A DNA stretch of 64,000 nucleotides, taken from contig OY987268.1 of assembly GCA_963920665.1 (NCBI GenBank), forward strand, positions 18,912,501-18,976,500. The letters run 5' to 3'. This DNA is from Straminergon stramineum. Lineage: Eukaryota; Streptophyta; Bryopsida; Hypnales; Calliergonaceae. The notes beneath the pieces are model-generated. The model ran no database searches and had not been told where the DNA came from. It was given only the letters and a program-made list of their open reading frames with translations. Each line of letters opens with the position of its first letter. Position 1 is the first letter of the stretch. Positions 3,530 through 63,330 of the stretch are shown piece by piece. A program made the translations under genes and the position numbers.

Positions 3530-4383
3530 AGCCCCCTAAGAAAAAAAAGAAATGATCCAACAAAAAAAAGAATGACATTGAAGTAGATTGGAAGAATTTT
3601 AGGAATGAAGAAAAAAATAAAAGGAAAGAGAATGATGGAACAAAAAAATAAAAATAATGGCTTTGAGTTTAGATGGAAGAACTTTAGTAAATAAGCAAAA
3701 ATAAAATAGGGAAGGGAAAGATTGAACAAATAAAGCAAAACTATGAGTTCAAATAAAACTGTCTTGCTAATTCATGAACCAAAACAAAATAGAAAATGGA
3801 ATGTTTCAACAAAAAAGAAAAGAATAACCGTGAGTTGGGATGGGAGAGTTTTAGGAATGAAGCCCAAAAAAAGAGAGAGAATGATCCAAACCCCCCAAAA
3901 TGGCATAGAGTTGGGATAGGAAGGGCTTTGTTCATTAATGGAAAAAATAGGAAAGGAAATGATGGAACAAATACAAAATGGCTTGGGGTTGGGATGGAAA
4001 ATTTTTGTGAGAGAGATAAGTCCACAAAAAATGAAAAAATATTGTGTCAAAATGATTTGAACTAACACCCTCCAAAAATTACCATTCAATTCGGATAGAG
4101 TTGGGATACCACAAAAAATAAATGAAATTCACTTGGGATGAAAGAGTTTTGCTAATGAAGCAAAAAATGAAATGAGTGGGAATGATCAACGATAAATAAA
4201 TGGCCTCGGGTAGAGATGGAACATTTTTGCTAATCACAAAAAATAAAATAGGAAAAAAAAATCATTCCACCCTACACAAGTGGCATTGAATTAAAATAAA
4301 AGACTTTTGGTAATGATGCCAAAAAAATAGGAAAGGGAATGATTCCGCCAAAAAAATAAGGGTAGTGACTTGGAATGGAAGTG
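3530..4383. repeat. Degenerate A-rich tandem repeat, about 80-bp unit
   Basis: Ten or so diverged units, each with a core like TTTTAGGAATGAAGC-A-rich-GGGAATGATCCAAC. Unit starts are near 3597, 3676, 3765, 3848, 3927, 4000, 4146, 4228 and 4308. The left end of the MULE lies immediately after the last unit. Low-complexity minus-strand open frames across it are not genes. The 300 bp before it (3220-3529) show nothing recognisable. Confidence 0.6.
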
Positions 4384-4395
4384 TGCTTTAAAAAT

Positions 4396-4500
4396 CGGGG
4401 TTGCTAGCATGCGAGCTTGTGAGCTTGTGAGCATAGGAGCGGGAATTATTTTTTAGAAAATAATTGGAAGGGACCTATGACCGTGGATTTTGAAAACCCT
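4396..4500. repeat. Left terminal inverted repeat of the MULE
   Basis: Pairs with the right end. Shared blocks are GCTAGCATGCGAGCTT (4403), GTGAGCATAGGAG and GGGACCTATGACCGTGGAT (4470). The right arm has extra A/T-rich insertions between blocks. Confidence 0.7.
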
Positions 4501-4730
4501 ATAATTCTCCGAAAGAAGGGTCATTTTTATGAAATAAAACGTACTTTGAACTTTTAGTTCATTTTTTGAACTAACAACTACATTTTGTCCAATATGGTCC
4601 AATCTTGAAAATGATAAATGCAAAGTAAAATAACAAACATGCAAGATATAGCCATAAAACACACAAATCCAATCATAATAGAAATCAACACATAATAGCA
4701 TGACTCATGAGATATGTCAATCTCGTGAGT

Positions 4731-7700
4731 CTAAGTCTCTGCAGACTCGATCGCATAATCAAAAGTCTTGGATGAGTTTGAAGACTCTGTACCCTCAGAC
4801 ACAGACCCATCTATAAATTGCAAGACACTCAAAGCGTAAGTGTCTTTACGGCGTTTTGGTTTAGAGCAACCAAAATCCACGAAGGCCTTAGCCATTTGTT
4901 GAGCATACACTGGAAGGTCAAAAGGCTTCTCCGGACTGATGACACTTTGTTTCTTCAACTTTGCACTTGCTGACATCAATCCTCGATGACTGCAATCCAA
5001 TATGATTCCATGTAAGAGTGTGACAATTTGGAAATCACCATATAAAGACAAAATTTTAAAAGTGCCAACTTACTTACTGAATTTTCCCTTCCGAGTGAAT
5101 TTCCGAGGTACGACGAGCATATCGTCTGGATCTTGTGAAACCAAAGCAATTGTCTGTGGTGGTGTTGCCACCATGGCCGGAGTGGACTTTTTCATTGGGG
5201 TGAGGATGGCGTCGAAAATGTCCTTGTTCTCCTCCAAAGCCACAATGTGGTAGCCTATTCCATGGCAAGCGGTAATTGATGCACCTGAAAGCAAGAGAAA
5301 AAAATTATTATTTCAAAGACTTCCACCATAAGTGACGGTTTGGAATACAACTAATGAAATTTCAACCCTAACCTGTAGATGCACTACAATCCAACACCAA
5401 ATCGCCTTCGACGATTGTAGCTTCCAATAGGATTTGGAAGAATCGTGGGTCTTTCTCGCGAGCACCCTGCCATGGCTTTCCACCGTTCATTGCCATGTCA
5501 TCTGGATGGGTGTAGTTCATCAACATGTCGTCTCGTGCAATGTCTACACTAGCTTTCTTCATCGTTGGTGTGCGTCTGAATGAGAAATTGGACTCGCCTT
5601 TTGTGCCTAAGTCCTTCACTATAAGGGTGATTCCAAATTTTTGCATCTGCAATCATCCCAAAGAGGTATAGAATCATGAGGAATGCAAGGAACATAATGC
5701 ACTATGAAGTGGTTGTGAATGCTACAAAGGTCCAATGGAATTTACCATTTTGGAATTGTCTATAGCCGAGGTCAAGTGCATGCGGTTCATGCCCATCCAC
5801 TCCTTTTTCTTGACCATCTGATACGTTTGACACAATCCAGCGATGTCGGACTTAGCTTTGGCACTCCACGAGTGAAACACTATTATGCATCCATGGTCCT
5901 GCAAGTGCTTCAAGGCGAAACTGAATGCAGATTGGAGAGCCTCATCTTCCAAATCTTCGTTCCATTCCGGCACCTCTCATGGCGGAGAAGATAGCCCCAG
6001 CACTGGCAAGTTTTCCGGGCAGTCAAAAAACACGACATCCACCCCCGGCCTAGCATTTGGCACACCGTAGAACATGCGAGGCTTTACCCCTAACAGCTGC
6101 CATTATAAAGAAGATCAAGAAACAAATGATGAGCATACCCTATATTCACAATAATTCAAACATGGAAATGCATTTTTAATTTCAACTCTAAGAACATTAC
6201 CTTCTTGAGAAAGGCCAAGACTTCTTTGTAGCATGTCGGATTCGTGGACTCCATGTCGTCTACAAGGTCTTCGATGGAGATGTTGAGGATTAAATCCTCA
6301 GACTTGGTTAAATCATCTTCACTAAGAACTATCGCTTGTGTGACATGAGTAATGATGTCTTGTGTGAGCTGCGAGAGAGTGGCCTTCCTCTTGATTCTGC
6401 TCTGAGATTTGGCTTGCATCTCAAAGCCTTGATCCACTGTGGAAGATGCTGGATTTTGGTTGTTGGCTTCGACCTTCTTCTTGCCTTTGGCCTTGGCCTT
6501 CTCTTCCTTCTATTTTTCCTTTTCTTTCTCTTTCTCTGCCAACTTGGTCAATCGCTCCGCTTCCCTCTTTTCCTTGGTGGTGAGAAGAACTTGGACCCGC
6601 ACCTCCTTCTTTCTGTCATTTGCGTCCCTCTTCGCAATGGCCTTCCTCCTCTGCCTGTTTGTCATGCCCAAGAACTCATCCACGTCCAAATTGATGGCAC
6701 CTTTGCCATCCAAAGATGCCCGAAGCTCCACCTCAGACGGATGAGTGAATGCCAGTGCACAGTCCACATACCACGCTCCTCCACTGAGATGAGCCGTGGT
6801 GAATGTTCTCATTTGGCTCGGTGTGAACATGTAGTCGGTGGAGCTTCGATCGAGCCAGGTGGACAAGAACGGAGGTAGTTCCTTCCAGTCGATTGCACCC
6901 TTTGCCTCTAGTTCGTACTTGAAGTATTTATAGCGCAAGAACTTATGGTCATTAAGGTCAAGTGGACAGATGTAGATGCAAATCAGAAGAGTGGGAGCAC
7001 TTTGTCATCCACCATAATGCAATATGAAGATCCTTCAACTATACAAATAATCAAAACATTTGAAAACCTTGGAAGAGAACCAATATGACCACAATATCTG
7101 CATGGAGCCATCTTTTACAATATTGGAAGACATGTAATGTCCTTAAGTTGTAACGAACTACAATCATACCTGAAAAGAACCCTTCTGATTGTCAAGTTTG
7201 ACCCCTCGTGATTCATGAAGGAGTCCCCTTTCTTGAAGTAATTTGCCCCTTTGAAGTATGGTCCAAAACCTTGGTCCCAAATCTTCCTCCTCCATCCCTC
7301 CATGTACTCCTGTAAGGTCTCTGGTTGTTGCGAGGCATTCATGTCTATTTTGATGTTGTCTTGTTTGACCACCCCCTCGAAGTACTCCACTACTGCATCT
7401 TCGATCTGGAAAAATCATTCAGTGTGACTAACATAGTATAAATGAAGGAGATGAAAGAGTCATAATCAATTACAATTACGGGTATTGGACAATATACATC
7501 ATTCCATTGAATTCACTAACTTTAGATACAAGTATACTTACCCTTGCATACCAAACACACTTGTTTAAGAAAGGTCCGAGGTGTGTTTTAGAGACAAGCT
7601 TGGGAGGGAACTTCCTCGCCTCTCGAGATGGAAGTGAGGAGTTCCACCATTTCAAGAATTTCACCTTGTGGTCGGCCATGGTGTTGTAAGTGGCTACCAT

Positions 7701-9126
7701 TTGCAGTTTCTCCAAGGTCATTTCTAGCACTTCGTTGGAGCTCCAATGCCTCTCTACCTGCGCCAACAAAAAGGAATGTTCTCATATGTTTAAACTGTAG
7801 TCCCAACTTGAAGAGAAAACAAATCGTGACATAATTTCTGAAATTTGTGTACTCACTTCTTGAAGAAATCCAGCCCCATGAGTAGGATTGGCCATTGTCA
7901 ACAACTTTATCATCTTGACATAGAGCTTCACGTTTTTCTCCTTCGCCCCTACCCTCATGGCGTGAGCGGCCCCTTCCATGGACTTCTCATCAATTGGTGT
8001 GGTCTCGTGGTATCTTCTAAGGGTTGCATCTGCTGCCAAAGCAATTTCGTGCTGCCAAAATCCAAATACTTTTGAAATATTGAATAAAGCAAGTCATTTC
8101 ATAACTTAGAGGACCACAAAAATGAAGCGGAATAGTTTCCTAATTCCAATCTCACCTTGAAGACAAATGAGGTGAACACCTCTGTTGGCATGGAGTACCA
8201 AGTCTTCCTTTGTAGTTGGGAGACACATCTCTTCCTCTCCGATGGTCGCAACATTTCATTGAACCTCTTAATCGGGAGAAGGCCGTACTTATGAACCCGA
8301 TACAGGGTATGTACCAAGTTTGTCTTCACATGTGAATCCTCTATTGATCTGCATGATTTTGAATGGACCATGGCTTTAGAACTCCATCAAAAAATGACAC
8401 GACAACACGCCCCCCCCCCACAACATTCATTTAAAAATCCAAATGTGAAGCATGTACTCACTTGTTGATGTTGTGCATAACCTGCATGATAAGCTCTATC
8501 TTCCCTTTCGTGTCCAATAGTATGGAGTCCACTACATAATGCCAATCAGGGTTCATGGAATACATCCTTGAGATGATGTTCATCCAAGCCAGGCATCGAT
8601 GATTTCCATCGCAAACGAAGAACTTCATATTCTTGAGAAACTTCAACGTTGGCTCGGAATCCACATACTCCTCAAAGGTGTCGTTCTTCTGCTTCCAAAG
8701 AGGATCCCAGTCGTCCATCTCTTGCGTCGTGAACACCGCACTCTCACCGGCCTCATTCGTAGTGGATACGTAGAAGACGGCTGCCCCATCCCGATAGCCA
8801 CAAGCAAATTCCCGCTCCAACAGCTGTATGTCACATGAGAGCGTGGGACATACCATTGGTATAGCGACAAGCGTGCAAAGGGGTATTGAAAGTCAAAAGG
8901 TTTTCTCTGGCTTCATTCTCAGAGCATTGATAGTTGAAACTGAGTCTACCTTTTGCAACCAGCGTAGGTCATCTTCTAACAATTCCTTCTCCTCCTCATC
9001 AACCACGTCCTCCTCCATGAATTGTCCTTCCTCCTCCAAGCCGATTTCAGGTTGCATGGTGTCATCAGTCCTTGGAGTCTCTATTAATGTGTCTTCTTGT
9101 GTTTGATTGATAAGCGACACATCCAT
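4731..9126 (-). pseudogene. ParB-like / beta-class amino DNA methyltransferase gene, ten phase-consistent exons, three premature stops
   Basis: Exons read 9126-8462, 8348-8156, 8051-7857, 7757-7542, 7405-7170, about 6969-6201, 6096-5746, 5646-5373, 5284-5074 and 4989-4731, about 1,122 codons. All introns start with GT and all but one end in AG, and phases agree throughout; the acceptor at 6970 reads AT instead of AG. An acidic N-terminus is followed by a ParB/sulfiredoxin-like region (VCDGNHRCLAW, then MHNINKSIEDSHVK), a long middle with a Lys/Glu coiled coil, then methyltransferase motif IV (VVFFDCPENLP), a motif X-like segment (GGKPWQGAREKDPRFFQILL) and motif I (LVLDCSASTGASITACHGIG, then ALEENKDIFDAI). 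The order IV-X-I defines beta-class enzymes that methylate an exocyclic amino group. In-frame stops are TGA 8895, TAG 6512 and TGA 5979. The ATG sits directly after an acceptor, so a 5' exon is possible. Confidence 0.75.
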
Positions 9127-9346
9127 CTGTAAAGCCAATTCAAGAAGAGAAGGAAGAACATTTAAATGGGAGAATGAAAAGAAGAACACAAATTCTATGT
9201 GAAAACCAACAAAATTTCACTTCACTGAAACCAAAAGTACAACAACACTTATGATGAAATATATAAAACATGTTAATTACCAAGAACATGCTATAGTCTC
9301 CACATTAGATAGAGAATGTATCTAAATACAAAAGAATGAGTTACAC

Positions 9347-9706
9347 TCAATCATCTATAATCTCCACATCACTCTCTAAGTCAGAGCTGAGAAGAATGAT
9401 CACTTCACCAAACCAATCCACACTATCACTACCATCACACTGACAAAAGTCTTCAAACTCTGGACTGACAATCGAAAGCGAAATTTGTTGTTCCGAACTA
9501 TACTCGGTCTGTACGCTCAGAGAAGAAAACTCAGGCCTTTTTCGTTTATGAGTGTAGTCTGCAATGAGGTGACCTGGCCAATTGGTATTCCGGCTAAGCT
9601 TTGAGAGCACCAAGGTGTCAGAAATTGGCCTGGCGGACTTCTTTTTACCCTCAAGTCTTACGAAGTCTTGCTCCTCTTCTTCTTCGTCTTGCGAGTCGCT
9701 TGACAC
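9347..9706 (-). CDS. Acidic/basic ORF upstream of the methyltransferase gene, possibly a 5' exon
   Basis: An open stretch ending in TGA at 9347. It begins with an acidic run (SSDSQDEEEEEQDF), then a basic segment (GKKKSARP; THKRKRPEF) that could be a nuclear localisation signal, and ends acidic (SSDLESDVEIIDD). The same frame stays open upstream to a TAA near 9761. It has no recognised domain. It lies 220 bp upstream of the methyltransferase ATG on the same strand, so it may be the last exon of a small separate gene or a mis-spliced first exon; no good donor that joins it to 9126 was found. Coding status is plausible from composition only. Confidence 0.35.
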   Translation of the reverse strand: MSSDSQDEEEEEQDFVRLEGKKKSARPISDTLVLSKLSRNTNWPGHLIADYTHKRKRPEFSSLSVQTEYSSEQQISLSIVSPEFEDFCQCDGSDSVDWFGEVIILLSSDLESDVEIIDD

Positions 9707-10059
9707 CTCCTCTTCCTCATCTATGGAAGTCTTCGGTTTCGAGGTACCACAAACCTCTTGGGCTTATTCTGCTGCAATTGGATCATTGGATGACGAAGTA
9801 ATGCATAGGAGTTTGCTTCCTTCCACCTGTACAACATACTAGAAGAAATCAATGTAACAACTACTGAAGAAGGATAAACAATAATTAAATAACCACACTA
9901 CAATCTGAAATAATCTACAAGAACATCAAGGTTGCCACCTAGACATCTTATAACATACTCCAGGACCAAATAAATTACTAACAATACAACCAATATTAAG
10001 CATCCAACAAAAGGTGCCCTCCCCTGGTGCTACGACCGTCACGAGGAGGTCGTGCCACA

Positions 10060-12435
10060 CAGGACCCCACCGCGAGTCCCCTTGTCCCCCGCCCAAAGTT
10101 GCGAGTGAAGTCAAGGACATTGCGACTAAAGTCAAGGACACGATAGCTCCTTTCCAAGCTCGCACTGGTGGTGAATGCCGTGAGGAGGCCACACTGTAGA
10201 TAAAATCAATCCAAGGCCGTGCCATCCCTATCTCGCACGCCAGAGGCATTGGTGCCATGCCAGTGACGAGTAGGTCGCGCCGCGCCTCAAGAAAGCCTGG
10301 GAGTGATGAAAGAAAATTGTAAGTGATTTGGTGAGGTCCCGTATTGAAGAGTACCACAAGCATCGCTGTCGACCCCAGTCGGGTCCAACTGAAGTCCCAA
10401 GCCAAGTGCGAGGTACCCCTAAAAATGGGACCCCACCGCGAGTACCCTTATCCCCTGCCCAGAGTTGCGAGTGAAGTCAAGGACGGGACAACTCCTTTCC
10501 AGGCTCGCTTTGGTGGTGAATGCCTTGAGGAGGCCACACTGTGGATAAAATCAACCCAAGGCTACACGGCCACATCATCCTTGTCTCGCACGCCAGAGGC
10601 ATTGGCGCCACGCCAGTGACGAGTAGGTCGCGCCACGCCTTGAGAAAGCCTGGGAGTGATGAAAGAAAATTGTAAGTGATTTGGTGAGGTCTTGTTTTGA
10701 AGAGTACCGCAAGTATCGCTGTCGACCCCAGTCGAGTCCGACTGAAGTCCCAAGCCAAGTGCGAGGTACCCCTAAAAATGGGACCCCACCGCGAGTACCC
10801 ATGTCCCCCGCCCAAAGTTGCGAGTGAAGTCAAGGATGCGACAGCTCCTTTCTAGGCTCGGTTTGGTGGTGAATGCCATGAGGAGGCCACATTGTGGATA
10901 AAATCAACCTAAGGCCGCACGGCCACGCCATCCTTGTCTCGCACGCCAGAGGCATTGGTGCCACGCTAGGGATGAGCAGGTCGCGTCGTGCCTCAAGAAA
11001 GCCTGGGAGTGATGAAAAAAATTGTAAGTGATTTGGTGAGGTCCTGTTTTGAAGAGTACCACAAGCATCGTTGTTGACCCCAGTCGGGTCTGACTGAAGT
11101 CCCAAGCCAAGTGCGAGGTACCCCTAAAAATGGGACCCCACTGTGAGTACCTTTGTCCCCCACCCAGAGTTGCGAGTGAAGTCAAGGATGCGACAGCTCC
11201 TTTCTAGGCTCGCTTTGGTGGTGAATGCCGTGAGGAGGCCACACTGTGGATAAAATCAACCCAAGGCCGCACGGCCACGCCATCCTTGTCTCGCACACCA
11301 AAGGCATTGGTGCCACGCTAGGGATGAGCAGGTCGCGTCGTGCCTCAAGAAAGCCCGGGAGTGATGAAAGAAAATTGTAAGTGATTTGGTGAGGTCTTGT
11401 TTTGAAGAGTACCGCAAGCATCGTTGTCAACCCCAATCAAGTCCAACTGAAGTCCCAAGCCAAGCGCGAGGTACCCCTAAAAATGGGACCCCACCGCGAG
11501 TAACCATGTCCCCTGCCCAGAGTTGTGAGTGAAGTCAAGGACGCGATAGCTCCTTTCCAGGCTTGCTTTGGTAGTGAATGCCATGAGGAGGCCACACTGT
11601 GGATAAAATCAACCCAAGGCTGCACGGCCACACCATCCTTGTCTTGCACGCCAGAGGCATTGGTGCCACACTAGGGATGAGTAGGTCGCGTTGTGCCTTA
11701 AGAAAGCCTGGGAGTGATGAAAAAAATTGTAAGTGATTTGGTGAGGTCTTGTTTTGAAGAGTACCGCAAGCATCATTGTCAACCCCAGTCGAGTCCGACT
11801 GAAGTCCCAAGCCAAGCACGAGGTACCCCTAAAAATGGGACCCCACCGCGAGTACCTTTGTCCCCCACCTAGAGTTGCGAGTGAAGTCAAGGATGCAACA
11901 GCTCCTTTCTAGGCTCGGTTTGGTGGTGAATGCCATGAGGAGGCCACATTGTGGATAAAATCAATCCAAGGCCGCGCTATCCCTATCTCACACGCTAGAG
12001 GCATTGGTGCCATGCTAGTGACGAGTAGGTCGCGCCGCGCTTCAAGAAAGCCTGAGAGTGATGAAAAAAAATTGTAAGTGATTTGGTGAGGTCTTGTTTT
12101 GAAGAGTACCGCAAGCATCGTTGTCGACCCCAGTCGAGTCCAACTGAAGTCCCAAGCCAAGCGCGAGGTACCCCTAAAAATGGGACCCCACCGCGAGTAC
12201 CCTTGTCCCCTGCTTAGAGTTGCGAGTGAAGTCAAGGACGGGACAACTCCTTTCCAGGCTCGGTTTGGTGGTGAATGCCATGAGGAGGCCACACTGTGGA
12301 TAAAATCAACCCAAGGCCGCACGGCCACGCCATCCTTGTCTCGCATGCTAGAGGCATTGGTGCCGCAACAGTGATGAGTAGGTCGTGCCGCGCCTTAAGA
12401 AAGCCCGGGAGTGATGAAAAAAATTGTAAGTGACT
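10060..12435. repeat. Tandem array, about 352-bp unit, roughly 6.7 copies, inside the MULE
   Basis: The landmark GAGGTACCCCTAAAAATGGG recurs at 10410, 10763, 11115, 11468, 11820 and 12165, i.e. spacings of 353, 352, 353, 352 and 345 bp. A first, partial unit begins near 10060 and the last stops near 12435 at AAATTGTAAGTGAC. Units are roughly 90-95% alike by eye. The minus strand stays open across a whole unit, but the unit length is not a multiple of three and the frame shifts from unit to unit, so these are not genes. The array lies between the two divergent genes of the element and could act as promoter or enhancer DNA, or simply as satellite expansion. Confidence 0.85.
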
Positions 12436-14710
12436 CTGTTGGGTTGGTGCATGAACTTGATTGAAGGTGATGTGCAGAACCTCATGGACGCGTTTCTTTT
12501 GCGGTGTTCGCGATGGGTTGTCTTGTTGAGTGTCTTCCTCTCCGTCATGAGCTTGACTACGAGTCCTCTACATCTTGCCGGCTTGCTCCTTGCGTTGGAC
12601 AATCGACATTAGTTTTGGTATCAAGTGCATGAGAAATAGTTTGATTCAAGCGCAACTGCACCAGAGAAACCCTCAGACACGCGGAAGGAGGATTGGGACC
12701 ATAGTATACGGTCAACTTCATTCTGATCGTGATTCCAAGGCCCAGGGCTCGGCGCTTGGCAGGCACCTCTTTGAGGGAGTAGGGTGAAGACGATATCAGG
12801 CTATGAAAGGCTCCCGAAATATTGGTCGACGGGGTTACTCAGAGTTGACAGGAATAGAATAATTGGAACTTTTAGCATGAGGCTGTTGAGTTTGGTGGAC
12901 TGGTGTGAATGGACCCTGCGTTGGTCCCCATTGCTCAAGCCTCAACCAATTTATCTTATTCGTCACATGTGATCAAACTCTCGAATTTTGAGCTCATACT
13001 TTTAATTTGAATTGGATGACCAAATTTAGCTTGGCGAGGTAGAGAAGATAAACTAATGAAACACGAAAAAGGGGGGCTTCTTTTTTACATGCACCCCTGG
13101 ACTAACCCGTGGAGGATGAGTGAGAGGGTCAATCCACCCCGAACATCTTGGAGGTATCGAAGATTTGAAAATTCTCAAATGAATCGTCGGCCTCGCGTTC
13201 ACTTATGCTACCAAACTATTTCTACAATACAGCTATGTAGAAGCTCACATGAATGAATCAGTATTCTAAACCTCTTAACGATTGAATTCAAACTATGACA
13301 GTCCTAGAAATGCTCAAATGAAGGGAGACCTTATTAGCAACCCCAAAAATGCTTAAATCCTTACAAAGTGATCATGCAAAGGATACCTAAACCCTCAAAA
13401 ATTGTTGGACGTGACTCAATCTAACAAATTGTGAGACAAGTTGGACGGATATTCACTCTTCATAAATACTAAGATTCCTAGTTTAAGGGTGAAAAAGTTT
13501 GATTTGTGCATCCTATCTACTTAATGGAAAGGAATAATGTACTCTAGTTTCTAGGAGACATTGAAGAAACTTTGAAATGTAGTAATGAATGGGAAAGGAT
13601 TCCTCTAAAAGCAATATGAACGATGGATGCTTACATTGTCAAAAATTGTGAGGTTGTCAGTAGCTTCATTTTGTGTGCTCTTTGGACCACATGACACTTG
13701 TCGCACTATTTCCATGTTGTGCGCTTCGACGTCCTCCTCCACAGCGCCACTAACTTCTCCAAAGCTTAGTATTCTACGAAGATCATTTGGTGTTGAGTGG
13801 CTTGTCTTCAACAATACTTTCTTGGCACAAGTCATCCTTGACCTTCTAAGTGTTTTGGAAGATGAAAAAAAAAAGGAACTACGCTTCCTCCTCTTTTTTG
13901 ACTGTTTTGCTATGATAAGTGAGGTGTTATTGTCATCTGGGTGCATGAGGGGATGCAAGATCATGTGGAACAAATGAATCTTTTCTACAAATATAAAACT
14001 ACCAAAACACACTAGAATGGCTACAGGATGCTAAAATGCCCATTACTTATATGCTGGACAACATCCGTAGAAATGCAAGTGAAAAGGGCCTACTAAAAAA
14101 TTAAAATGATAGACGGATACTTTGAATTTCAAAACATCGTCCCTTGCCGCCTTATTTAATGTGTCGTCCGAACAGATTGGATACCATTCAAGGCAATTAT
14201 AGCCTCTTCATGTGCGCGGGTTCTTGGGAGTTGCCAACTCTACATCTCACACACTTCAGAGCATTTATGACAGCCGCCTACATCAAAATTGGCAACCATG
14301 CCATTTGGAATTACCATGAAGGCGCTGTCCCTATTTAGAATGTACTCATGCTAAATCAAATTTCTTGATGACGTTGTGTTCATCAATTGAGCCTCCAAAC
14401 AAATGAGGAATGCATCATTACTCCCCAAACCGCACATTCCTTCCAAACTAATCCTATTGAAATCCCGTCGACAATGGCGCATGTATGCCATTATTGAAAT
14501 TCTAGGAGTACGCAATGGAAGAGGCCGTACGTGGTGGTGCATACACTGTTATTCTAAATGAGAGTCCATAATTTTCCCATCACCCTCTTTCATAGCTGGA
14601 CATCGAACTAGACATTATAAAATAGTATCTTCGAAGTTCACTTCTTGGCAACCCCACTACTTGGACCATTTCCATTCAATCCCTACATCCATTGAGCCCA
14701 TTGTATTCTC
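12436..14710. other. Internal MULE spacer with one possible minus-strand exon
   Basis: No recognisable gene. The only candidate is an exon-like block at 13936-13635 on the minus strand. It is preceded by CACCCAG (acceptor), followed by GTAAGC (donor), and encodes a basic stretch (SKKRRKRSS) and an acidic one (GAVEEDVEAHN). It could be an upstream exon of the methyltransferase transcription unit or of an unknown small gene. Confidence 0.3.
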
Positions 14711-17700
14711 ATGGCTTGCATACGAGTAGACGGTCATGAGATTCCCTTAGTATTTCTTGTAGACAGCGGAGGATTTGCTAGGGTCACGAGTCACTTGCTA
14801 CACGTTCATTTCAAGTTTGTAGAGTCTTCCATCTATGTCGAAGAAGAGAGGAAGTCGGAATTAGGTGAGCTGCAGGAATTTGTCCCTGTAATAAAGCTCT
14901 TGGAAGAAGGAGGGCATTGTTGGTACCTCTCTTCTAGAAACTATAGGGCCTACGGATTTCCTCTATCTATACTTGTTGCGTCTACAGAGATTCTTAGCCG
15001 CCAATCCGATGTATCGACAGTAGATATGCCGTATGTCACACATACCATTTCACCTAGTTCTCCTCAAGAAGTGGGGATGGTCCCACCCCAATCTACAATA
15101 CTTCATACATTGAAAGTAGAGAAACTAGATCCTATCATAGAAGTGTTGTATGAATCGGAAGGAGAGTCTCCGGATTTAAGGCTCCGCCACCAACCACGCT
15201 CTATCATAATTCCATGGGAAGGACCAACTCATGTCAACTCGGTCTCTAGTACCCCGTCCAATACTCTAATGCAGTCATTGTTCTCACGTCCTCCTTTGCA
15301 CCCAAGTCCACTTGAGGGAGTGAGCATCATGGAAAGCTTGAGGAGACTCGCCACCATGCATCGCTCACGGAATGAATTGTCTGCAACTGATCTGAATGCC
15401 ATGAAGCATCACCGCGTGGAATTCTTGCCTTCAGCTTTTAATGGCGATGTCATCTTCGAGTTGCCTCCATGTTGCTCCTCTTCATCTTCATTGGCGGCCA
15501 AGAACTTAGAAGGAATGAACAAGCGATTTGACGAACCCCCGTGCTGCAAGTTGGTGACAACAAACATCAACAACTGTGAAAACCTCAAATTCCGTAAGTC
15601 CTATTGTGCTAGGCATCTGTCTTGTCAAAATCCTGAGTGTGATTATTTGAAGAGGGCTTCGAAAGGGAATGAAATAGAGTGGAGTGGCTATACAATCTTT
15701 GCGTTTGCTGTAGGGGCCAATCTGCCCAAAGATTCTACTCTAGTCTGTAAAGTGTGCAAAATGGCCCTTGCATGCTTGAAAACATGCAATGCTAGGATAT
15801 ACTACTCCTATAGTGATAATCCGAATATGAGTAGGGCTACAATTCACTTCGGAGATCATGCTCACCCTGTTGCGAAAGGCATGTACAGAGATTCCACAAA
15901 GAAAATATGTGGACTCATTGCAGAGCAAGTGGCCAAAACACCAACGGCCACGAATTCTGCTATCGCGCTCTTTGCTAGCAAAGATTTCCTTACCAATTAT
16001 CTATTTCACAAAGGAGAGGGAGAAAAGGAAATGTTGAAGGGGGAGGAACTAGAGGAGGTCATGGACCGATTCCAATATTTGAGTAGTCCGAATATTAGGA
16101 ATTTGATCTCTTCATTTCGCTCTAACAACCAAGGAGGTGTCATTGACAACATCATGACTATGAAGAAAGAATCAAAGTTTGAATTTGTCCATGACAGCGT
16201 ATTTTCAGGCCAAGGCAAAGAGAAGGTGTACGTTTTCAAAATGCTCACCAAAGGACCCGGAAGTGGTATTGATCTAGTGAGGCAAATGCAACCGGGAGGT
16301 GATCTTCAAAATGCGTGGATGATGTTTGACCACGTCAAGTGCGTAAAGGAGTGGACCACGATGGCTTGCCACATGTATGATCCTCAATACAAAAAGGTGA
16401 TGACCATTTCAACCTACAACATGCAATCTAAAGATATTGAGATCCAAGTGAAATTTTGGAGGTGCTTGAATGATGTCATGTCAAAAAATGGTGTTCACCA
16501 TCCATACTTCAAGGGATTTATGGCAGACAATGCAATGGCTAATTGGAATGCGGTTCGCATCGTCTACAGTAGTGGTTCTGCCAAGGAAAAAATGGAGAAC
16601 CGTGAAAGGACTTGTTTGTTGCATTGGACTACTTCACTTCAGAAGCATACATAGAAACACATAAAGGTAGCATTCCAACAGCAACACAATACATTGTGCA
16701 AGCAGTACAAAGATTCCAAAACTACGGAGGAGGCAGAGACGCGGTATCTAGCGATACGATCATGGTGGTTGTCATCTGGAGTTACCAATGAAGAATCACT
16801 TCATCACTTAGACCACTGGCTGGCATTCTGGCATTTTCGGTACCATCAATGGGGAGGCTTCATGCAAATGGTAAGTATCTATTTGTATTTAATTTTATAT
16901 AATCATTTTGCTGCTTGCAAATTTCGGTCTGTGATAGATTATATGTGTCATTATCGATAGAGGATTTGAGAAAGTCATCCACTTTTTTCAATTTCATAAA
17001 AATCTGAGGAGAATGGAGTTGGGACCCCAAAATGGGAGTACCTCAACATTCAACTGGAACATTAGTCGGATCCGACTGATGTGTTCAAGGGATGTACAAG
17101 TATCCCTTTTTGGAGTATCGTCCTCTAAAAAGAGTAATTGTTTGGCCCCAACTCTAGAAAGTGATCATGTATTGTTGATAGTGAAGAATCCAATTCTTCA
17201 AGTGTTCATTTCTAGCGTAGAAATGCATTCATTGTATAGTGGTGAAATGTCTTTGTTTGTCCATCTTTAGTAGATTACACCCTTAGTCAACAAAATAATT
17301 CAAGTGTACTAAAAGACTTGAAATATGTCCCTGCAAGTAGTAATTGAAGTGTTGTTGTGGATGGATTTAAAGGATTTGAGTTTGGAGGAAATGGCAGATA
17401 TGCCTTCGTGCAATCTATCAGAAACAGTTCACAACAAGTGGCTTCAAATGTCTAGTAATCGAGGAAACAATTTGTTTGATGCCACTTGTGACGACAGTAT
17501 CCGAGCTTGGATGCAAATGACAAACTACTGTGCATACTTGGGAGGCCACACATCTGGGTCTAGTCCATCAAAGGGGGAGTTGAAGTTGAGAGTTGCAAGA
17601 CGAAGTGGAGATCCCAAGAAGATGGTTGAGGCCTTAAACACACTACCTGGAGCCGTCGGGATTGGAACTCGAGTACCACATCTAGAAGGAGAATAAATTT

Positions 17701-18734
17701 TTGGAAGCACAAAGAGGAAGTTGGACGTACCTATTGGCGATGCTGGAGACTCACATCGACCAAATAAAGTTAATTTTTCTCAGCCTCATATTCGCATGAG
17801 ATCCACTGTGGCTTCTACACAAGTCATGCAGGATTTAGAAAAACAACATGTGGTGAACCCTTCTCAACATGTCACTATCGCATTTGAAAGTGATTGTGAC
17901 ACATCGAAATGGCACATAGCAAGAATCAACCACAAATCAAACGCAAAATGTCAAGCTCAACAGTGTGGGTCCAACATCAAGTGCACTGCCAAAATTGCAA
18001 GGGGACGAAAGGGATCACCAGCTCCTACCTACCGTGGGAGGAAAGAAGATTACGGAAGTAAACGAGAGGTAGTGGCGGACTTCTGGTTCTGCTGGGATGA
18101 CATACAAAGATGTGTGAAAGGTACAAAAAGGAAGTGGGTCATTGATTGGCCAGAGGTACCGGAAGTTTGGCCAGTTCTAACTGGGACTAATCTCAATCAA
18201 GAGGAGACCTTGCTACTACAACATGCAGGCTTCCATCTCCAAGAACGTCCTATACTATCGCCACGTCGCCTGTTCAACATGTCCAAGATTTTCGAAAGTG
18301 TTGTATATGATAGTAAGCCACCCACAAATGCGGATGTGTACCCAACGGTTACGAACAATCGAACCATTCGGCGAATTGCAAATGCACCATCTACTGAACA
18401 GCAAAACAAATAGGAAAGCGCTGGTAATGTTAAAGGACAAATCCTTGGAGTCACATTACTTCCCTTTCCAGGCCTCAGTGCAATTGTGTCCTTGGAGACA
18501 GAGGTAGACCATAACAAAAATGTCTATCAAATTATAGTGGGTATATTTCCCGCGTGCACATGCCCCGACTTTGTGAACATGGTTGTCTCGGCTATTGGAG
18601 GTCGTCATCAATATGTGAATTGCAAGCACTTATACTACTTATACCACTACTTTTGTAAGATGGACCTACATGATGGCAAATTCATTCATGCACCAAGTTA
18701 TAGCTTCAACGAGTTGAAGCTACTTTTAGTTTGA
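14711..18734 (+). pseudogene. MULE (MuDR-type) transposase with SWIM zinc finger, intron-containing, three premature stops
   Basis: Exon 1 runs from the ATG at 14711 to 16870, before a canonical donor GTAAGT. Exon 2 resumes about 17311-17325 and ends at TGA 18732. In-frame stops are TAG 16652, TAA 17694 and TAG 18411. The first 230 residues are of unknown type. At residues 299-387 is a Cys/His set like a FLYWCH/WRKY-GCM1 finger (CARHLSCQNPEC, CKVC, GDHAHP). The DDE-type core follows, with FKGFMADNAMANW around residue 606 holding the likely second catalytic Asp. In the segment where the first Asp is expected (TYNMQSKD, about 567) there is an Asn, which may be a further lesion. Exon 2 ends with a SWIM motif, CxC (CTC at 18556) through NCKH. 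This gene defines the superfamily of the surrounding element. Confidence 0.8.
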
Positions 18735-19000
18735 GCAGGAATTATCACAGTTCTAGAGTAGGCATGAACTCATTTATCGATGTACTTCACTTGGATTGTA
18801 TTCATTCATATATATTATAATTGAAATGATTTGGAGTGTATGGAATTGAAAATTTGAATGCATTCATGAAATAGAAAAGCATGTCTCATTGGTCTATTAT
18901 TTTGTAGTTAGTTCATATAAATGATTGAAATATAGCACCATAATCCCTATTTTAGTAAGGCATATATGAATACATAATTCGGTCTTCCCCCTTTGCCCTA

Positions 19001-19440
19001 GTGTTTTCCCAATTTTTTAACTTCCTCATAGTCTTCTTAATTCCATTGTTTTTCCCTTCATTTCCGCTTCTTATTCTGGGGGTTTTCCATTATACATTCT
19101 TGTTGGTTTTCCTTTACTCCAAATTCTTCCTTCCACCATTATTTTCTTCTTTAATCCATTTTTTCCCTTCTCCCATTTTTTTCTCTTTTCCCATTTTTTT
19201 TCTTCTTCCATTTTTTTCTCTTTCCCCATTTTTTTCCTTCTACCATTTCTTTCTCTTTCCCCATTTTTTCCCTTTCCCCATTTGTTTATGCCCTTTCCTC
19301 ATTTGTTTCTTCCCTTACCCCTTTTGGTTTTCCCTATACCCATTTATTTTTCCTTTTCCCATTTCTTGGTCACTACTCATTTCATTTTATTTTCCCATTT
19401 TCTTCCTTTCCCCATCTTCTTTTTCTTCTACCAATTTCTA
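19001..19440. repeat. Pyrimidine-rich low-complexity tract
   Basis: Mostly C/T, built of units like CCCATTTTTTTCTCTTTC about 22-25 bp long, on the inner side of the right MULE terminus. The 146-codon frame it opens encodes only Phe, Pro, Leu and Ser and is not a gene. Confidence 0.7.
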
Positions 19441-19894
19441 GGGCCAATTATTACAATTTCTTTAGAGGATGTCAACATTTGGTAGTAAATTTCAATCATC
19501 ACAAAAAAACTATTTCAAAATAGAAAATTATGTAAAGAAAATAATCTGAAGATTTCAGTGAAATGTCTACCACAAATCCACAGTGGCTTGTGGACGTCAT
19601 CTCATCCAAACCTTCAGATTGTCTACTCATCCTACACATGTGCACATACACTTTTGCTCATGGAAATCCCATTAGTTATGGGATAGTCAGAACCCTAGAT
19701 CCTATGTATTCAAATTAGGTAGACTGAAAAACGCAATGGAGTTGTGTCCAAATGACATCTACCTACAAAACTCACACCGTCCAACATATTTCCCATTGTT
19801 ATCATTGAACCAAGTGGCGAAACTTTTCACCTAAGTTCCAAGGTCTTTTCCAGTAGTAGTAAGCAATTTCAAAAGGATAAAAAATGACTCATTC

Positions 19895-20101
19895 CACAAT
19901 CCACGGTTTTAGGGGACATGGTCTTAGGTCATAATAATTACTATAAATAGTATGTTTTCCTCTATTTTTTGGAAAAAAGGTGAAAAAAAAAAAAGGGTGG
20001 TAAAAAAACTAAAAAAAGAGGTTCTGTGGGCTCCAGGCTCACAAACTCCATGCTCACAACTCACAGGCTCACGACTCTAAGCTCACATGCTAGCGTCGTT
20101 G
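19895..20101. repeat. Right terminal inverted repeat of the MULE
   Basis: Inverted match to 4396-4500, interrupted by A-rich insertions (19975-20020). Outer block CATGCTAGC at 20086-20094, inner block CCACGGTTTT at 19901-19910 and GTCTTAGGTC at 19921-19930. Confidence 0.7.
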
Positions 20102-20188
20102 CTTTAAAAATGAATGTCCAATAGGGGAGATGGAGTGACCCAAGCTTTTGAAAAGCATACCAATTTATTTTAGAGTGGCCAATTATTT

Positions 20189-20480
20189 TTAAGGAGTTAT
20201 GTAATCTAACATTAAAAGAAATATGAATGGTGGAGTGCTTTCGAATATGGAAATGGTTTGGGTGTTAGTGTGATTTGATGTAACACCCAAAAAATTTATG
20301 GAATGGTGGAGTGATTTGGACATGGAAGTGGTTTGGGTGTTACAATGATGTAATTTAACACCCCCAAAAAATATGGAATGGTGGATTGATTTGGATATGG
20401 AAATGATTTGGGTGTTACAGTGATATGATGTAACATTAAAAAAAAATATGGAGTGTTGGAGTGACTTGGAATATGGAATA
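20189..20480. repeat. Tandem repeat, 75-bp unit, four copies
   Basis: Units contain GAATGGTGGAGTGATTTGGA and TGGTTTGGGTGTTACAGTGA. Spacing of GGTGGAG is 20229, 20305, 20380 and about 20455. It lies just outside the right end of the MULE. Confidence 0.8.
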
Positions 20481-20546
20481 TGGAATATGAAATATGAAAT
20501 ATGAAATGGAAATATGTAAAAGCATATTAATTTAGCATATGTAAAT

Positions 20547-25676: not shown

Positions 25677-26060
25677 CCCAACGAGCTCCAAATGCAACCA
25701 CAAGCAAGCACAAAATATAACAATGAGCGATCTTCAAATTTAACAAGCAAGCTCGAATGTAACAACAAGCGAACTCCAAATGGAACAATAAAACTAGAAT
25801 TGTACCAACAAGAAAACTCCAAATTCCAACAGAAGAAAGCTCAAAATATAACAAAAGTGAGCTCCAAACTCAACCACAAGCAGGTTAAAAATGTAACAAT
25901 GAATGAGCTCCAAATTCAACAAGCAAGCTAGAATAGTAACAACAAGCGAGTTCTAAACTCAACCATAAGCAAGCTTGAAATGTACATAACTACAAGCAAT
26001 CTAAAAATGTAACAATATGCTAGCTCAAAATGCAACATAGACAGAGAAGTCATGCTCTAG
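25677..26060. repeat. Degenerate short tandem repeat (about 23-bp unit)
   Basis: Irregular units such as AACAAGCAAGCTCGAATGTA and GAGCTCCAAATTCAAC, directly after the end of the family C LTR. Mostly A/C on the plus strand. Confidence 0.5.
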
Positions 26061-36291: not shown

Positions 36292-39200
36292 TGTCGCGAT
36301 CCGTAATCTTAGAAGTCACCATATTAGTACTAAAAGAAGTATAAGTATATAGAATTTTTCAAAATTCTTAACAGACAAAAAGGGTTAAAACCCTCTTAGC
36401 CTAAAACATCTCACTAACACTAGACAGATGCTCCAAGTAATCCGTAATGGAATCCAGGAAGGATCCGGATTCCGGAAATCCAGATAGCAATAGCCTAGTA
36501 CCTAGACTTCCGGTCTAGAAATAGGGACCCGTTATGAGTGAACGGTCCGCTTTACGAACGGTCGGTATTTTGACGGGTACTTAACCCCGCCACTGTCATT
36601 TCCTTTGCCTCTTTTCCCACAACTGTTTTGTGCGCGCATAGCTGAGTGAAAGAGTGGTGAGTTAGTGCTCGCGTGAGAGGTGATAGTATCTATAGATTTC
36701 TGAATAGTTGAGATGGCGGAGGGAGATATCCGGAAGACCTTGGTCACCAACCGGATGGTTTGTCCAACCATTCCGGAAAGGTTGAGAGACAGATCCCAGT
36801 TAGAGGATGACCTTAGTGAGATAGGATGTATCGGTCTGTTCATGCGGCCATGGACCGTAAAGAACGACCGGATGATCCAAGAATTGATAGTTGGTGCTTC
36901 TAATCAGTATGAGTTGACCGTGAGAGGAAGGCCTCAAACCTGGACTGATGACGTCTGGGCTAGAGTTTACGGATTTCCTAAGAAGGGATCCGGTTTAGCG
37001 TCATGGACAGACAAGTTTGTAGTCGGGAAGTTCAAAAACGCGGCCCATTCTAAGGAAGGGTATGCGATTAGTGATTGTTTGGATGCCCGACAGAGACACA
37101 TCTTGGAGTTCTTGATTTCCATCCTGTATCCGGAAAAGCCTACCCGGGTTACGGTTACGGTAGCAAACACCATATTTGGTGCATTTGAGGGTAGACCAGT
37201 CAGTTGGGGCAAGGTGATTGGATCCGTAGTCGCCAAGCTTGCCGCCAACGTGGGAAAGGGAAAGACGAGTCCCATAGGGCCATATCTTTTCCATCTATAC
37301 CATCACGCAGAACTTCTCAACGATGCGGAGATGGTGGAGTACAACACTGGAGCAACGATCCTGCAATACGGATTGACGGAAGAAGTGACGGCAACGCAGC
37401 CGCCGCTGGAAGAGGAGGAGGATCCGGAGGAAGACAAGCAACCCCTGGAGCGGAGGCACCGGAAGTCCATGGATCCGACATCATGGGGAAAGCTTCCGGC
37501 TCAACAGAGGATTACGGAAGAAGAGGAAGGAAGCATATCCGGGTTCTTCAAAACCGGATTCAACTGGGTGCTCCAAGCGCAAGAGTACCATGAGAGCCTG
37601 ACGGATCTGCTCAGGAGGATAGGCCGCGAGCTAAAGACGGAACCGGAAGATATCCTCGACGCATTGAAGAAACTTCCAAACCCGGAAGTCCTCAAGCAGA
37701 AAGATAAGCAGATCGTAGCCCTGGAGAAGGAGAAAGCGGATCTTCAGGTGAGACTCAGTTGGGCGTAGGGCGAGATGGCTGAAGCGAAGCAAAGGGAGAA
37801 GGAAGCCCTCCAACTGCTGAAGAATTTATCCGGCTTGGTAGACAAGCCGACCGATATGGTGATGAAGGCGGCTCTAACCCAAAGCCGATTGACTAAGGAA
37901 GGGCACCTCACCGGATCCAAGGTCATCCGGATACTCATCGACTTCTCATCCCGGATGGAGCTCACACTCAAGGAGATGAGGCAGCTGCTTGGATGGATCG
38001 ACCCCGATTGGGTAATGGACTTCTCCAACTTCTCGAAGATACATTTTGACACGGAGACACCCGTCAAGCTCAGCACCTCGATGCCGCTACCGTCGAAACC
38101 GGAAGTTCCGAGGGAGAGTCTTCGGTACTCCACGGAACCTTTCTCCAAACAACTGGAGAAGACAATCCGGGGGAGCGTGAAGTCAGCACCCAAGTCTAGC
38201 AAGCAGCCGGAGACAAGACGGGAGTTGGCACCTCCAAAAGTTACGGTGTCTCCACCCGTCCCAGTCTTCAACCTTCCGGAAACGGAGCTGCTGCCGACGC
38301 CTCACGTCCAAGCCTGTGGCCAACTGATAGAGCGGCTCAGGGGATTGTTGAATCCGGCTCGCTCTCATCCGGAGGAGTTCGAACATATGGGGGAAGAGGA
38401 GCAGCAACCAAGGAAGGAGATCAAGCTAATCGTGTTGGATGAGACGTCTCCAAGCGAGGAGACTGAAAGGCGGATCACTCAGATTGAGAAATCTGAGGAG
38501 GAAGAATATCGGATTGGATCGGAGGACGAGGACGAGGAAGAAGCCGACTACTCTCCTCCGGAAATCTGGAAGATACAAACCCGGGCGGCTTTACGGTCGA
38601 CCCCCATGAAGGCGACCCCAAAGGCAACACCAAGGGCATCTCAGCGAACACCAGCGAGTCAAGGTGGAAGCAGCCAGGAGAAAGCGCGAAAGGCGAAGTA
38701 GTTAGGACTTTTTAGGGAGATAGGATTTTGATTTTGAACCGGATCCGGATTTCCAGGTGTGGGACCGGGTTCCGGATTTGTAGGATCTCACCTTTCCCAG
38801 ATTTCTCGGGAAGGTTGTGAGTGGTCACCTGGATTTCCGGGTGGCCTTTCAGCCTTTTTGGCTTTGAGTTGTTTTGTGTTTTTAAAGTGTGAGGCGGGTT
38901 GTTTGCTTCTCATTCCATCCTAGCACTATATTTTGTACCTTGACATCCTTTCTTTTTAATCTGAGCCACCAAGTGGACCTTCAGGGATTGATCTGTCGTA
39001 TATCTAGCTTTCTTGTGTTTCCATGTAAGTGTCTGACGTGTGAGAAAGGAGGAGAAAAGGAGGAATACGGATCTAAGGGGACTTGGGTTTGATTTGTGGG
39101 GAATGTTTGTGATAGAATCTAGACTAGTGACTTTGGTATTGAGCACGTGCCTTTAAACTACTATAACGGGAATCCGATTAGGAGTGGTAGGGGCGCGAGT

Positions 39201-51010: not shown

Positions 51011-51680
51011 GTTGGTTGTCTATCTAGAGGAAGATGGTTATCTTTCGAAGGAAAGATGTAAAAGCTATATATGTCTCCAAACAAAAAAATGTAGCTGTCA
51101 TAGTTAGAAAGATGGCTCAGAAAAAATCAACAAAAACCCTAAAAATTATAAAATCCTTAAAAAACACTAGACAATTTCAAAGTTTGATTCCTATCTAAGA
51201 CTTTGATTTGTTGGTTGATATTCTAAGTATCAACAAGTTGGTTGTTTGCCCAGAGGAAGATGGTTATCGTCTAAAGGAAAGACATAAAAGCTATATATGC
51301 CTCCAAACAAAAAAATGTAGTTGTCATAGTTAGAAAGATGGCTTAGAAAAAATCAACAAAAACCGTAAAAATTATAAAATCCTTTAACACAACTAAAAAT
51401 CTCAAAGACTAACTCACCCTTTATAGAATTAGGATTGCATGTTGGATGCCTCTACTTAGGACTTCAATACATGTTTGGTGCACTACCGGTTATCCTTCTA
51501 AAACAATGTTCATTGGCACCGATTATGGTTTTAAAAGAATGTAAAAGCTATATATGCCTCCAAACAAAAAAATATAGCCATCCCCTTGTGATGGCTCAGA
51601 AAAAATTAACAAAAACCCTAAAAAATATAAAACCCCTTAAAATACCAAAAACTTTTGAAAATCCCTAAAAATATAAAAAG
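51011..51680. repeat. Tandem repeat, three diverged copies of about 230-257 bp
   Basis: The block AAAGCTATATATGCCTCCAA followed by ACAAAAAAATGTAG and CAGAAAAAATCAACAAAAAC recurs; CTATATATG is at about 51065, 51291 and 51548. There is no coding capacity. Confidence 0.7.
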
Positions 51681-62010: not shown

Positions 62011-62790
62011 AGATTGATTTTTCATCCCAATTGCCCTAGCCAAATTCCTCAGTCCCTAGCCAAAATCTCCCCAATCCTTGGTGAACCCCCCTAGCCCCTA
62101 ATTGAAACTCCCATCCCCCCTTGTACTAACCGATACTCAAGTCATCGATACCCAGACTTTTGGGCTAGTCTTATGGTGCTAGTGCGGATGTTAGTACTAG
62201 CCTACTAGTGTCGGTCACCGTTGGTGCTCAGTCCAGTAATGAGGGGGTAGATGTTGCATTGTAAATGCGTTCATTATGTAAAAATACATAATTGTTTGTT
62301 AAATTGGAGGGGTTTTTTCTAGAGTCTCAAGAAACAAATGAGGTCATACTCCATTTGAACTCTTTTTTTTTACTTCTATTTGACAAACATTTAGTTCTTT
62401 GATTTCTATACTTAAAGACGTTTTAATATTTGAAGTTGTTTATTTGAAGTTGTAAAAACAAAAGGTAAAGCTTGTTTTACCTTTTCTCTAGTTGTTTTTA
62501 ATGAATTAGAAGTCCACGTAGATGATGTGGATAGACTTATTAAGGATAGGAAGTGGCCTATGGGTGTCTTATGGCCCACAAGGCATCTTGGTGGCCAAAA
62601 TCCATTAGCTTAAGTAAATTGTATGGAGGTGAAGGTGGAGGGTCATCTTTTTCCTCTTCCTTGTTTACTTGGGAGAACCCGTCACTTTGAGAAGGTATAG
62701 CACTTTGCATATGAAGGTTTTTGCAATGAAATTTTGAGAGCTTGTATATTTTGTTTTTTTGTTTCCGAAAAGCTATCACTTACTTAGTTT

Positions 62791-63330
62791 GGAATTAATA
62801 TGTGTAAGTTATGAGTTTGAGAATGAAGTGTTGTGAACTTGCCTCAAACTTTCAAGAGAGTGAGCTCTACTAAACTATAAAAGGTGGAAAATATCTTAGT
62901 TTTGAGTGAAACTTAGAGATCTTGTAGATACTTATGTTAACTTTCCAAAATGGGTTTATTTTTTTGGTTTGGAGTTAGTATGTGAAAGTTATGAACTTGA
63001 GAGTGAAGAGTTGAAGAACTATTTTTGGTTTTCAAGAGAGTGAACTTTGGAGGATTATGAAAGGTGAAAAGTACCTTAATTTTGAGTGAAACTTAGAGAG
63101 GTTGTAGATACTTTTTTAGCTTTCCAAAATGGATTTATTTTCTTAGTTTGGAGTTAGTATGTGAAAGTTATAGGCTTGAGAATGAAGTATAGATGAATTG
63201 CCTTTGAGTTGGGAAGGGTGAATTTTGACTAACTATAAAAGTCAAAAAGTAGCTTATTTTTTAGTGAATTTTGGAGAGGTTACAGAAATTTTTGTTAGCT
63301 TTTCAGGGACATATCACACTCTTAATTTGG
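62791..63330. repeat. Tandem repeat, 179-180-bp unit, three copies
   Basis: GGAGTTAGTATGTGAAAGTTA begins units at 62791, 62971, 63150 and, degenerate, 63329. Each unit also contains TTTTGAGTGAAACTTAGAGA and CTTTCCAAAATGG. Confidence 0.85.

Follow-up and report, generated by a model that had tools for sequence, protein, structure and literature searches.

The 64,000-nucleotide stretch of Straminergon stramineum contig OY987268.1 analyzed here (hereafter, the window) contains a single Mutator-like element (MULE) at positions 4396–20101, with a length of 15,706 bp. The element carries two large genes, one for a MULE-like transposase and one for a methyltransferase (MTase)-like protein, together with a gene for an acidic protein, a basic open reading frame (ORF), and a tandem array (Table 1). 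Its borders are marked by terminal inverted repeats and target site duplications. The two large genes are paired across subfamilies, are transcribed in opposite directions, and have evolved under purifying selection. The MTase-like protein, with a predicted fold of the beta-class amino-methyltransferases, has lost the DPPY-type tetrapeptide of motif IV.

The left end of the element starts with CGGGGTTGCTAGCATG / CGGGGTTGCTAGCATGCGAGCTT, and the right end closes with GCTAGCGTCGTTG. In the window copy, GCTAGCATG(C/T)GAGCTT is present in inverted orientation at both termini, the outer seven bases being imperfect. When pairs of 30-base stretches were drawn at random from the window, they shared a word of at least 12 bases in 1 of 4998 trials. 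The hexamer GTGAGC reaches a density of 6.7–33 per kb within the outermost 150 bp, compared with 0.13–0.52 per kb inside, and its clusters stand in mirror orientation at both ends of four out of four copies. In each of the four copies read to both ends (the window copy and those designated C2, C6, and C3), the terminal inverted repeats are related and the 10-bp duplication is exact. Target site duplications of MULEs generally range from 8 to 11 bp. A previous reading of the window from its letters alone (the sequence-only reading) had delimited one element by inverted ends and a flanking duplication of 10–12 bp. The borders agree in the three other copies, and the duplication stands, but its length is 10 bp only, and each of the four copies has its own. 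VANDAL elements, in contrast to the present element, are not known to have clear terminal inverted repeats.

Table 1. Coordinates of the features of the element in the window.
Feature	Position	Strand	Basis
Target site duplication, left copy, CTTTAAAAAT	4386..4395	.	Exact 10-bp repeat outside the ends; likewise in three other copies
Left terminal inverted repeat, GTGAGC hexamers just inside	4396..4418	+	GCTAGCATGCGAGCTT pairs with the right end; related end in other copies
ParB/methyltransferase-like gene (METHYLTRANSFERASE-like gene)	4731..9126	-	Ten exons, GT-AG introns; MTase matches; decayed in the window copy
Exons of the MTase-like gene	9126-8462, 8348-8156, 8051-7857, 7757-7542, 7405-7170, 7038-6201, 6096-5746, 5646-5373, 5284-5074, 4989-4731	-	Gene model
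Motif I position, DCSAST continuing into the next exon; SAM (S-adenosylmethionine)-binding loop in beta-class enzymes	5373..5391	-	Alignment and copy peptides
Motif IV position, DCPENL instead of DPPYNL-type	6007..6024	-	Alignment and copy peptides
ParB-like box CDGNHRCLAW	8584..8613	-	Recognizable in 8/8 other aligned copies, two with a stop inside
Third gene, last exon: acidic protein ending EVIILLSSDLESDVEIIDD	9347..9763	-	Related ORF in 7/8 other copies examined
353-bp tandem array, 6.6 copies, between genes	10120..12433	.	Repeat scan; much shorter in the C2 copy
Basic KRRKRSS-containing ORF	13605..14030	-	Similar ORF in four other copies, 34–87% identity
MULE-like transposase gene	14711..18736 (end approximate)	+	Exon to ~16869, intron, exon from ~17340; stops in the window copy
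Right terminal inverted repeat	20079..20101	-	Match to the left end; related ends in other copies
Target site duplication, right copy, CTTTAAAAAT	20102..20111	.	Exact 10-bp repeat

The genome searched is a 326-Mb assembly of 59 contigs, and the window lies on C6, where the element occupies 18,916,896–18,932,601. The C2 copy is collinear with window positions 4413–20101 apart from a shorter tandem array, with 93% identity and the duplication GGTAATGTAC. The C6 copy represents a second subfamily, with 69–76% identity in long aligned pieces and the duplication CAGCACACAC, and the C3 copy is distant, with 65% transposase identity and the duplication AGTCCCAACT. One end was read of a fifth copy, C10. 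All four copies read to both ends hold the transposase gene and a divergently transcribed MTase-like gene. The element belongs to a large cut-and-paste transposon family.

The MTase-like gene is decayed in the window copy, which has in-frame stops at 8893–8895, 6510–6512, and 5977–5979 and a frame change near 6962. An additional intron inside exon 1, with its first two stretches as separate exons, was ruled out by continuity in other copies. The minus-strand model with GT-AG introns bears out the earlier proposal of a large intron-containing gene inside the element, transcribed away from the transposase. Other copies were needed for the MTase assignment because the single window sequence gave weak or no matches. 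A protein-database search with a single sequence found nothing, pieces of the window scanned singly against Pfam matched no methyltransferase family, and the C-terminal part alone reached PHROGs methyltransferase families only weakly (E 0.0026–0.05). With the MTase part, a viral scan gave one distant phage match and a scan of prokaryote genomes gave no match; among the 20 phage tblastn matches listed, most were annotated as methyltransferases, at E values of 0.1 or weaker. Among the solved-structure matches listed for one sequence, most were T-cell receptors, which were discarded as noise.

Peptides were collected from 37 loci, five of which fell below the coverage rule, leaving 32 peptides from 30 places; the window's own sequence and seven of these peptides form an eight-sequence alignment. 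All eight members match PF01555 (best E 1.6e-5; member 1 scores 18.6 bits, under the curated cut-off of 26.7), and all eight match PHROGs methyltransferase families (best E 1.4e-8). Against the PDB, the alignment profile matched DpnA (5e-4) and CcrM (0.012). A relative from Ceratodon purpureus (P0024, KC19_N032100, 275 amino acids, on a 47-kb contig) gave a structural model with a predicted local distance difference test score (pLDDT) of 77 and a predicted template modeling score (pTM) of 0.75. Foldseek placed this model closest to DNA N6-adenine enzymes, namely M.BceJIV (6e-12), CcrM (6e-11), RsrI, and MboIIA, all within E values of 6e-12 to 3e-10. The order of the motifs, IV before I, is that of the beta class. 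Profiles and predicted structure thus support an MTase fold, and the beta-class amino-methyltransferase gene named in the sequence-only reading is upheld as MTase-like. For the ParB-like part of that reading, a box, FVCDGNHR..AW, is recognizable in 8/8 other copies, but profile matches are weak (PHROGs ParB-like, E 0.17, for one of two proteins; DUF6551, 0.13, below cut-off, for the window exon), and Pfam ParB gave no match in the three proteins scanned.

A marked difference from known enzymes is present at motif IV, where phage and bacterial relatives have DPPYN. Among the 32 element peptides, DCPE occurs 14 times, DCSE six times, and DYPE and DCQE three times each, with DYLE, DCLE, DCHE, DRPE, DCPK, and HCPK once each. 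Glutamate occupies the aromatic position in 30 of the 32, and none has the canonical [DNS]PP[YFW]. The canonical form is likewise missing from all 51 database relatives, which include many fragments; 19 cover the site in the searched form, 18 with E and one with K. In the eight-sequence alignment, the D, E, N, and L of motif IV are invariant, and the E-N-L, W-N, H-S, and L-T-S positions are strongly conserved. Motif I mostly reads DC(S/T)ASTG in the element copies, the first G of the loop being replaced by S (DVTASTG in L047). P0024 has DIPEGL and DIGAGTGAS at the two sites, and judging from this protein the altered motif IV extends beyond the Straminergon genome; another relative, P0031, has the SAM-loop-like DCTAGTGAS. 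Ordinary base methylation has probably been lost or changed in the MTase-like protein. Fourteen of the 51 relatives (P0050, P0051, P0054, and others) have DWQCGVG at motif I, and the three named share a PWRGAREK block; they would form a second branch of the MTase-like family.

The association of the two large genes was examined throughout the assembly. A search with the C-terminal half of the MTase-like protein gave at least 228 matches at exon level; scoring covered 70 of 2040 candidates, and 68 distinct places were used. With the first transposase set (68 listed places), a transposase lay no farther than 20 kb from 21 of the 68 MTase-like places and no farther than 40 kb from 23. All first-set pairs are divergent, and 0.14 pairs would be expected in place of the 21 by a simple chance formula that disregards repeat clustering. 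When second-subfamily transposases were added, at least 40 of the 68 MTase-like places listed had a transposase within 20 kb. All 40 pairs are oppositely oriented; in 38 of them the transposase lies 5.4–14.1 kb away on the 5' side, and in two it lies on the other side. The combined transposase list comprises 25 first-set copies at ≥81%, three already paired, two from read loci, and 57 class-II places; other places of the first-set and class-II listings were omitted, so the first-set rate of 21/30 is biased. Sixteen of the 25 close copies (≥81%) are paired with an MTase-like place within 20 kb. In the protein database, the contigs of transposase relatives and those of MTase relatives have no lengths in common. 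The pairing in several independent insertions envisaged in the sequence-only reading is thus found both in the four full copies and at 40 of the 68 places.

Selection was evaluated from the ratio of nonsynonymous to synonymous substitution rates (Ka/Ks). In the comparison of the window with the C6 copy, the MTase-like gene has a Ka/Ks of 0.123 at Ks 1.0 over 815 codons, and the transposase has 0.110 at Ks 1.8 over 647 codons. The acidic gene, with 125 codons and a nearly saturated Ks of 2.3, has 0.137. Most of the more distant pairs have saturated synonymous sites. Between close copies the values are higher, 0.28–0.53 for the two large genes and 0.78–0.79 for the acidic gene, as expected because the copies are decaying. 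The transposase and the MTase-like gene are under purifying selection between subfamilies.

The transposase gene of the window copy is interrupted by stops at 16652, 17694, and 18411. Thirteen database relatives share 45–77% identity with it. Neither the window transposase nor the seven relatives scanned matched a Pfam MULE or SWIM profile, which a divergent family could escape, and viral contigs gave no match for the transposase. In the alignment, F539-D540 and A605-D606 are invariant and C635..H638-W639 is nearly invariant; a CxC...CxH pattern was read by eye near the C end. The predicted model shows an RNase H-like order of strands and helices at low confidence (pLDDT 49), and its top Foldseek match, at a non-significant E value of 0.12, is the ISCth4 transposase, of the IS256 family. 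MULE-like is the best label on the basis of the ends, the duplication, and the motif, and it is unproven by profile; the MULE transposase of the sequence-only reading therefore holds in this looser form, with no Pfam MULE profile match behind it. A more distant transposase (~48% core identity) was observed at positions 3662–7738 of locus L054, upstream of a class-II transposase on C7. An end-like repeat lies near 8617 at this locus, which may be a nested insertion or another subfamily.

The acidic gene was found in eight of nine copies in total and additionally in L056. A stop occurs within a few codons of its hydrophobic-acidic DVEI tail in 8/8 copies, including the window, and this tail looks like a SUMO-interacting motif. 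Transposase residues near 143–158 (ORF 14711–16651) read LDPIIEVLYESEGESP, and LDPIIELSSESEGESP in the relative P0001; both resemble the acidic tail. The basic ORF, less strongly conserved, may be the 5' (first) exon of the acidic gene. In the C2 copy, the whole stretch between the matches flanking the 353-bp array is only ~0.5 kb, a rapid change in copy number like that reported for the target repeats of VANC.

Since the DPPY tetrapeptide is altered to D-x-x-E, a repurposed DNA-binding or regulatory protein appears likelier than a writer of N4-methylcytosine (4mC) or N6-methyladenine (6mA). We propose that the large protein derives from a ParB-methylase of phage or bacterial type and has been repurposed: it would no longer use an aromatic residue to stack a flipped base and would now act as a DNA-bound accessory factor of the element. 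Its binding sites would lie in the element itself, most probably in the non-coding middle or in the ends rich in GTGAGC, and the bound factor would help to keep copies expressed or aid transposase assembly, in a role like that of VANC in VANDAL elements. From the sequences compared here, we give this proposal an even chance. Tentatively, a plant DNA-transposon lineage may have anciently recruited a bacterial or phage ParB-methylase, fixed an acidic residue at the site of its base-stacking aromatic, and kept the protein as a non-methylating partner of the transposase that recognizes ends or chromatin.

Several observations weigh against the proposal of a repurposed accessory factor. Among the places listed, 28 of the 68 MTase-like places have no transposase nearby, and 40 of the 57 class-II transposases have no MTase-like place (17 have one). 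For six transposases partnerless by listing, 10 kb upstream, ~2–13 kb from the gene start, was read. Four of them (L049, L050, L051, and L056) do have an MTase-like gene, indicating that the listings miss true pairs. The remaining two lack the gene in the 10 kb read, where L054 has the other distant transposase and L055 nothing similar; some elements thus lack or have lost the gene. The contrary case of the sequence-only reading, terminal repeats without the gene and the gene alone at a host locus, was for the most part not seen, four of the six having the gene in the 10 kb read and two lacking it there; the MTase-like gene may not be obligatory. Moreover, the acidic gene was undetected in the distant C3 copy, the ParB label is plausible only, and an anti-silencing role would follow by analogy. 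Finally, motif I retains remnants (D...STG; DIGAGTG in P0024), by which SAM binding and some methyl transfer, perhaps to another substrate, may persist.

These remnants also speak for an amino-methyltransferase that is still active despite its non-canonical motif IV; it would place 4mC or 6mA on the element, either as an escape from silencing or as a mark of the ends for the transposase. The nearest folds and profiles, those of DNA N6-adenine and N4-cytosine enzymes, point the same way, and a 4mC enzyme is on record from bdelloid rotifers, with a mention of one for Marchantia sperm (PMC8885841). Such a writer is nevertheless unlikely: the canonical tetrapeptide is found in none of the element peptides or relatives described above, and an acidic residue occupies the place of the base-stacking aromatic. 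Deposition of 4mC or 6mA is accordingly the least supported part of the sequence-only reading, and domain matches alone are insufficient for calling such proteins 4mC or 6mA writers. Methylation of another substrate (protein, RNA, or a modified base) via SAM, aided by the new glutamate, would agree with the SAM-loop-like sequences of P0024 and P0031 and with the strongly conserved positions around and beyond E-N-L, but the Straminergon copies have S in place of the loop's first G, and we regard this possibility as quite improbable.

The protein might instead be an architectural subunit of the transposition machine, joining the GTGAGC-rich ends with no role in silencing. Most MULEs are mobile by transposase alone, and two of the six probed transposases lack the gene in the 10 kb read; on the other side stand the inverted GTGAGC clusters at both ends of all four copies, the retention of the gene along with the transposase, and the nicking activity described for a Bacillus cereus ParB-methylase (PMC5512222). 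We consider such a subunit rather unlikely. MULEs do capture host sequence, and the MTase-like gene could be a passenger, derived from a fragment of a host gene that was captured once. However, the same gene order recurs with MTase-like copies 44–92% identical to that of the window (exon 7 matches), and Ka/Ks is 0.12 at Ks 1.0. The pairing and the purifying selection lead us to reject this explanation as scarcely credible; a host relative of the gene may exist.

To date, several selfish elements with comparable cargo have been described. Carried epigenetic modifiers (VANC, TET/JBP, SET, and DNMT) show selfish DNA opposing silencing. METTL14-type pseudo-methyltransferases likewise combine an MTase fold under selection with an altered catalytic tetrapeptide and nucleic-acid binding, but they act in an RNA pathway and belong to the MT-A70 class. 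VANDAL elements (VANA, VANB, and VANC) also encode a transposase with accessory proteins and have tandem-repeat non-coding parts (PMC10398659); the accessory genes here are ParB/MTase-like and acidic. DNMT retrotransposons of Symbiodinium and charophytes are selfish elements that keep a DNA methyltransferase gene (PMC5890265). Theirs are active 5-methylcytosine DNMTs, whereas the present element belongs to the DNA transposons and encodes a beta-class amino-MTase fold with an altered motif IV. Fungal DNA transposons with TET/JBP and oomycete MuDR and Harbinger elements with SET carry epigenetic-modifier genes as well (PMC12730594); their enzyme class and chemistry differ from those of the present element.

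Phage and bacterial ParB-methylase fusions and beta-class MTases (CcrM, M.BceJIV, and DpnA) share the MTase fold with IV before I, whereas here DPPY is lost, a long middle region is present, and the spliced gene lies within a transposon. A fusion of ParB with an adenine methylase does exist (PMC5512222). No MULE with an N4/N6 methyltransferase gene was found among the titles and abstracts listed, mostly of the open literature and partly on neighboring topics, Repbase being outside this scope. Transposons with an epigenetic-type accessory gene are already known; in the present element that gene has the N4/N6 amino-MTase fold with an altered tetrapeptide. The carried gene persists beside the transposase through deep subfamily divergence, and the element lends itself to testing whether a methyltransferase has been repurposed within a eukaryotic transposon. 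If the reading as a dead fold is true, it would represent a new class of transposon accessory proteins built on a methyltransferase fold.

Elsewhere in the window, two adjoining plus-strand ORFs (354 and 310 amino acids) at 36704–38701 gave no Pfam match at E 0.1; as a guess, they could be gag-like portions of some other repeat. Beyond the element, further tandem arrays are located at 20214–20483 (period 75), 25682–25975 (43/134), 51027–51502 (period 226), and 62783–63302 (period 180).

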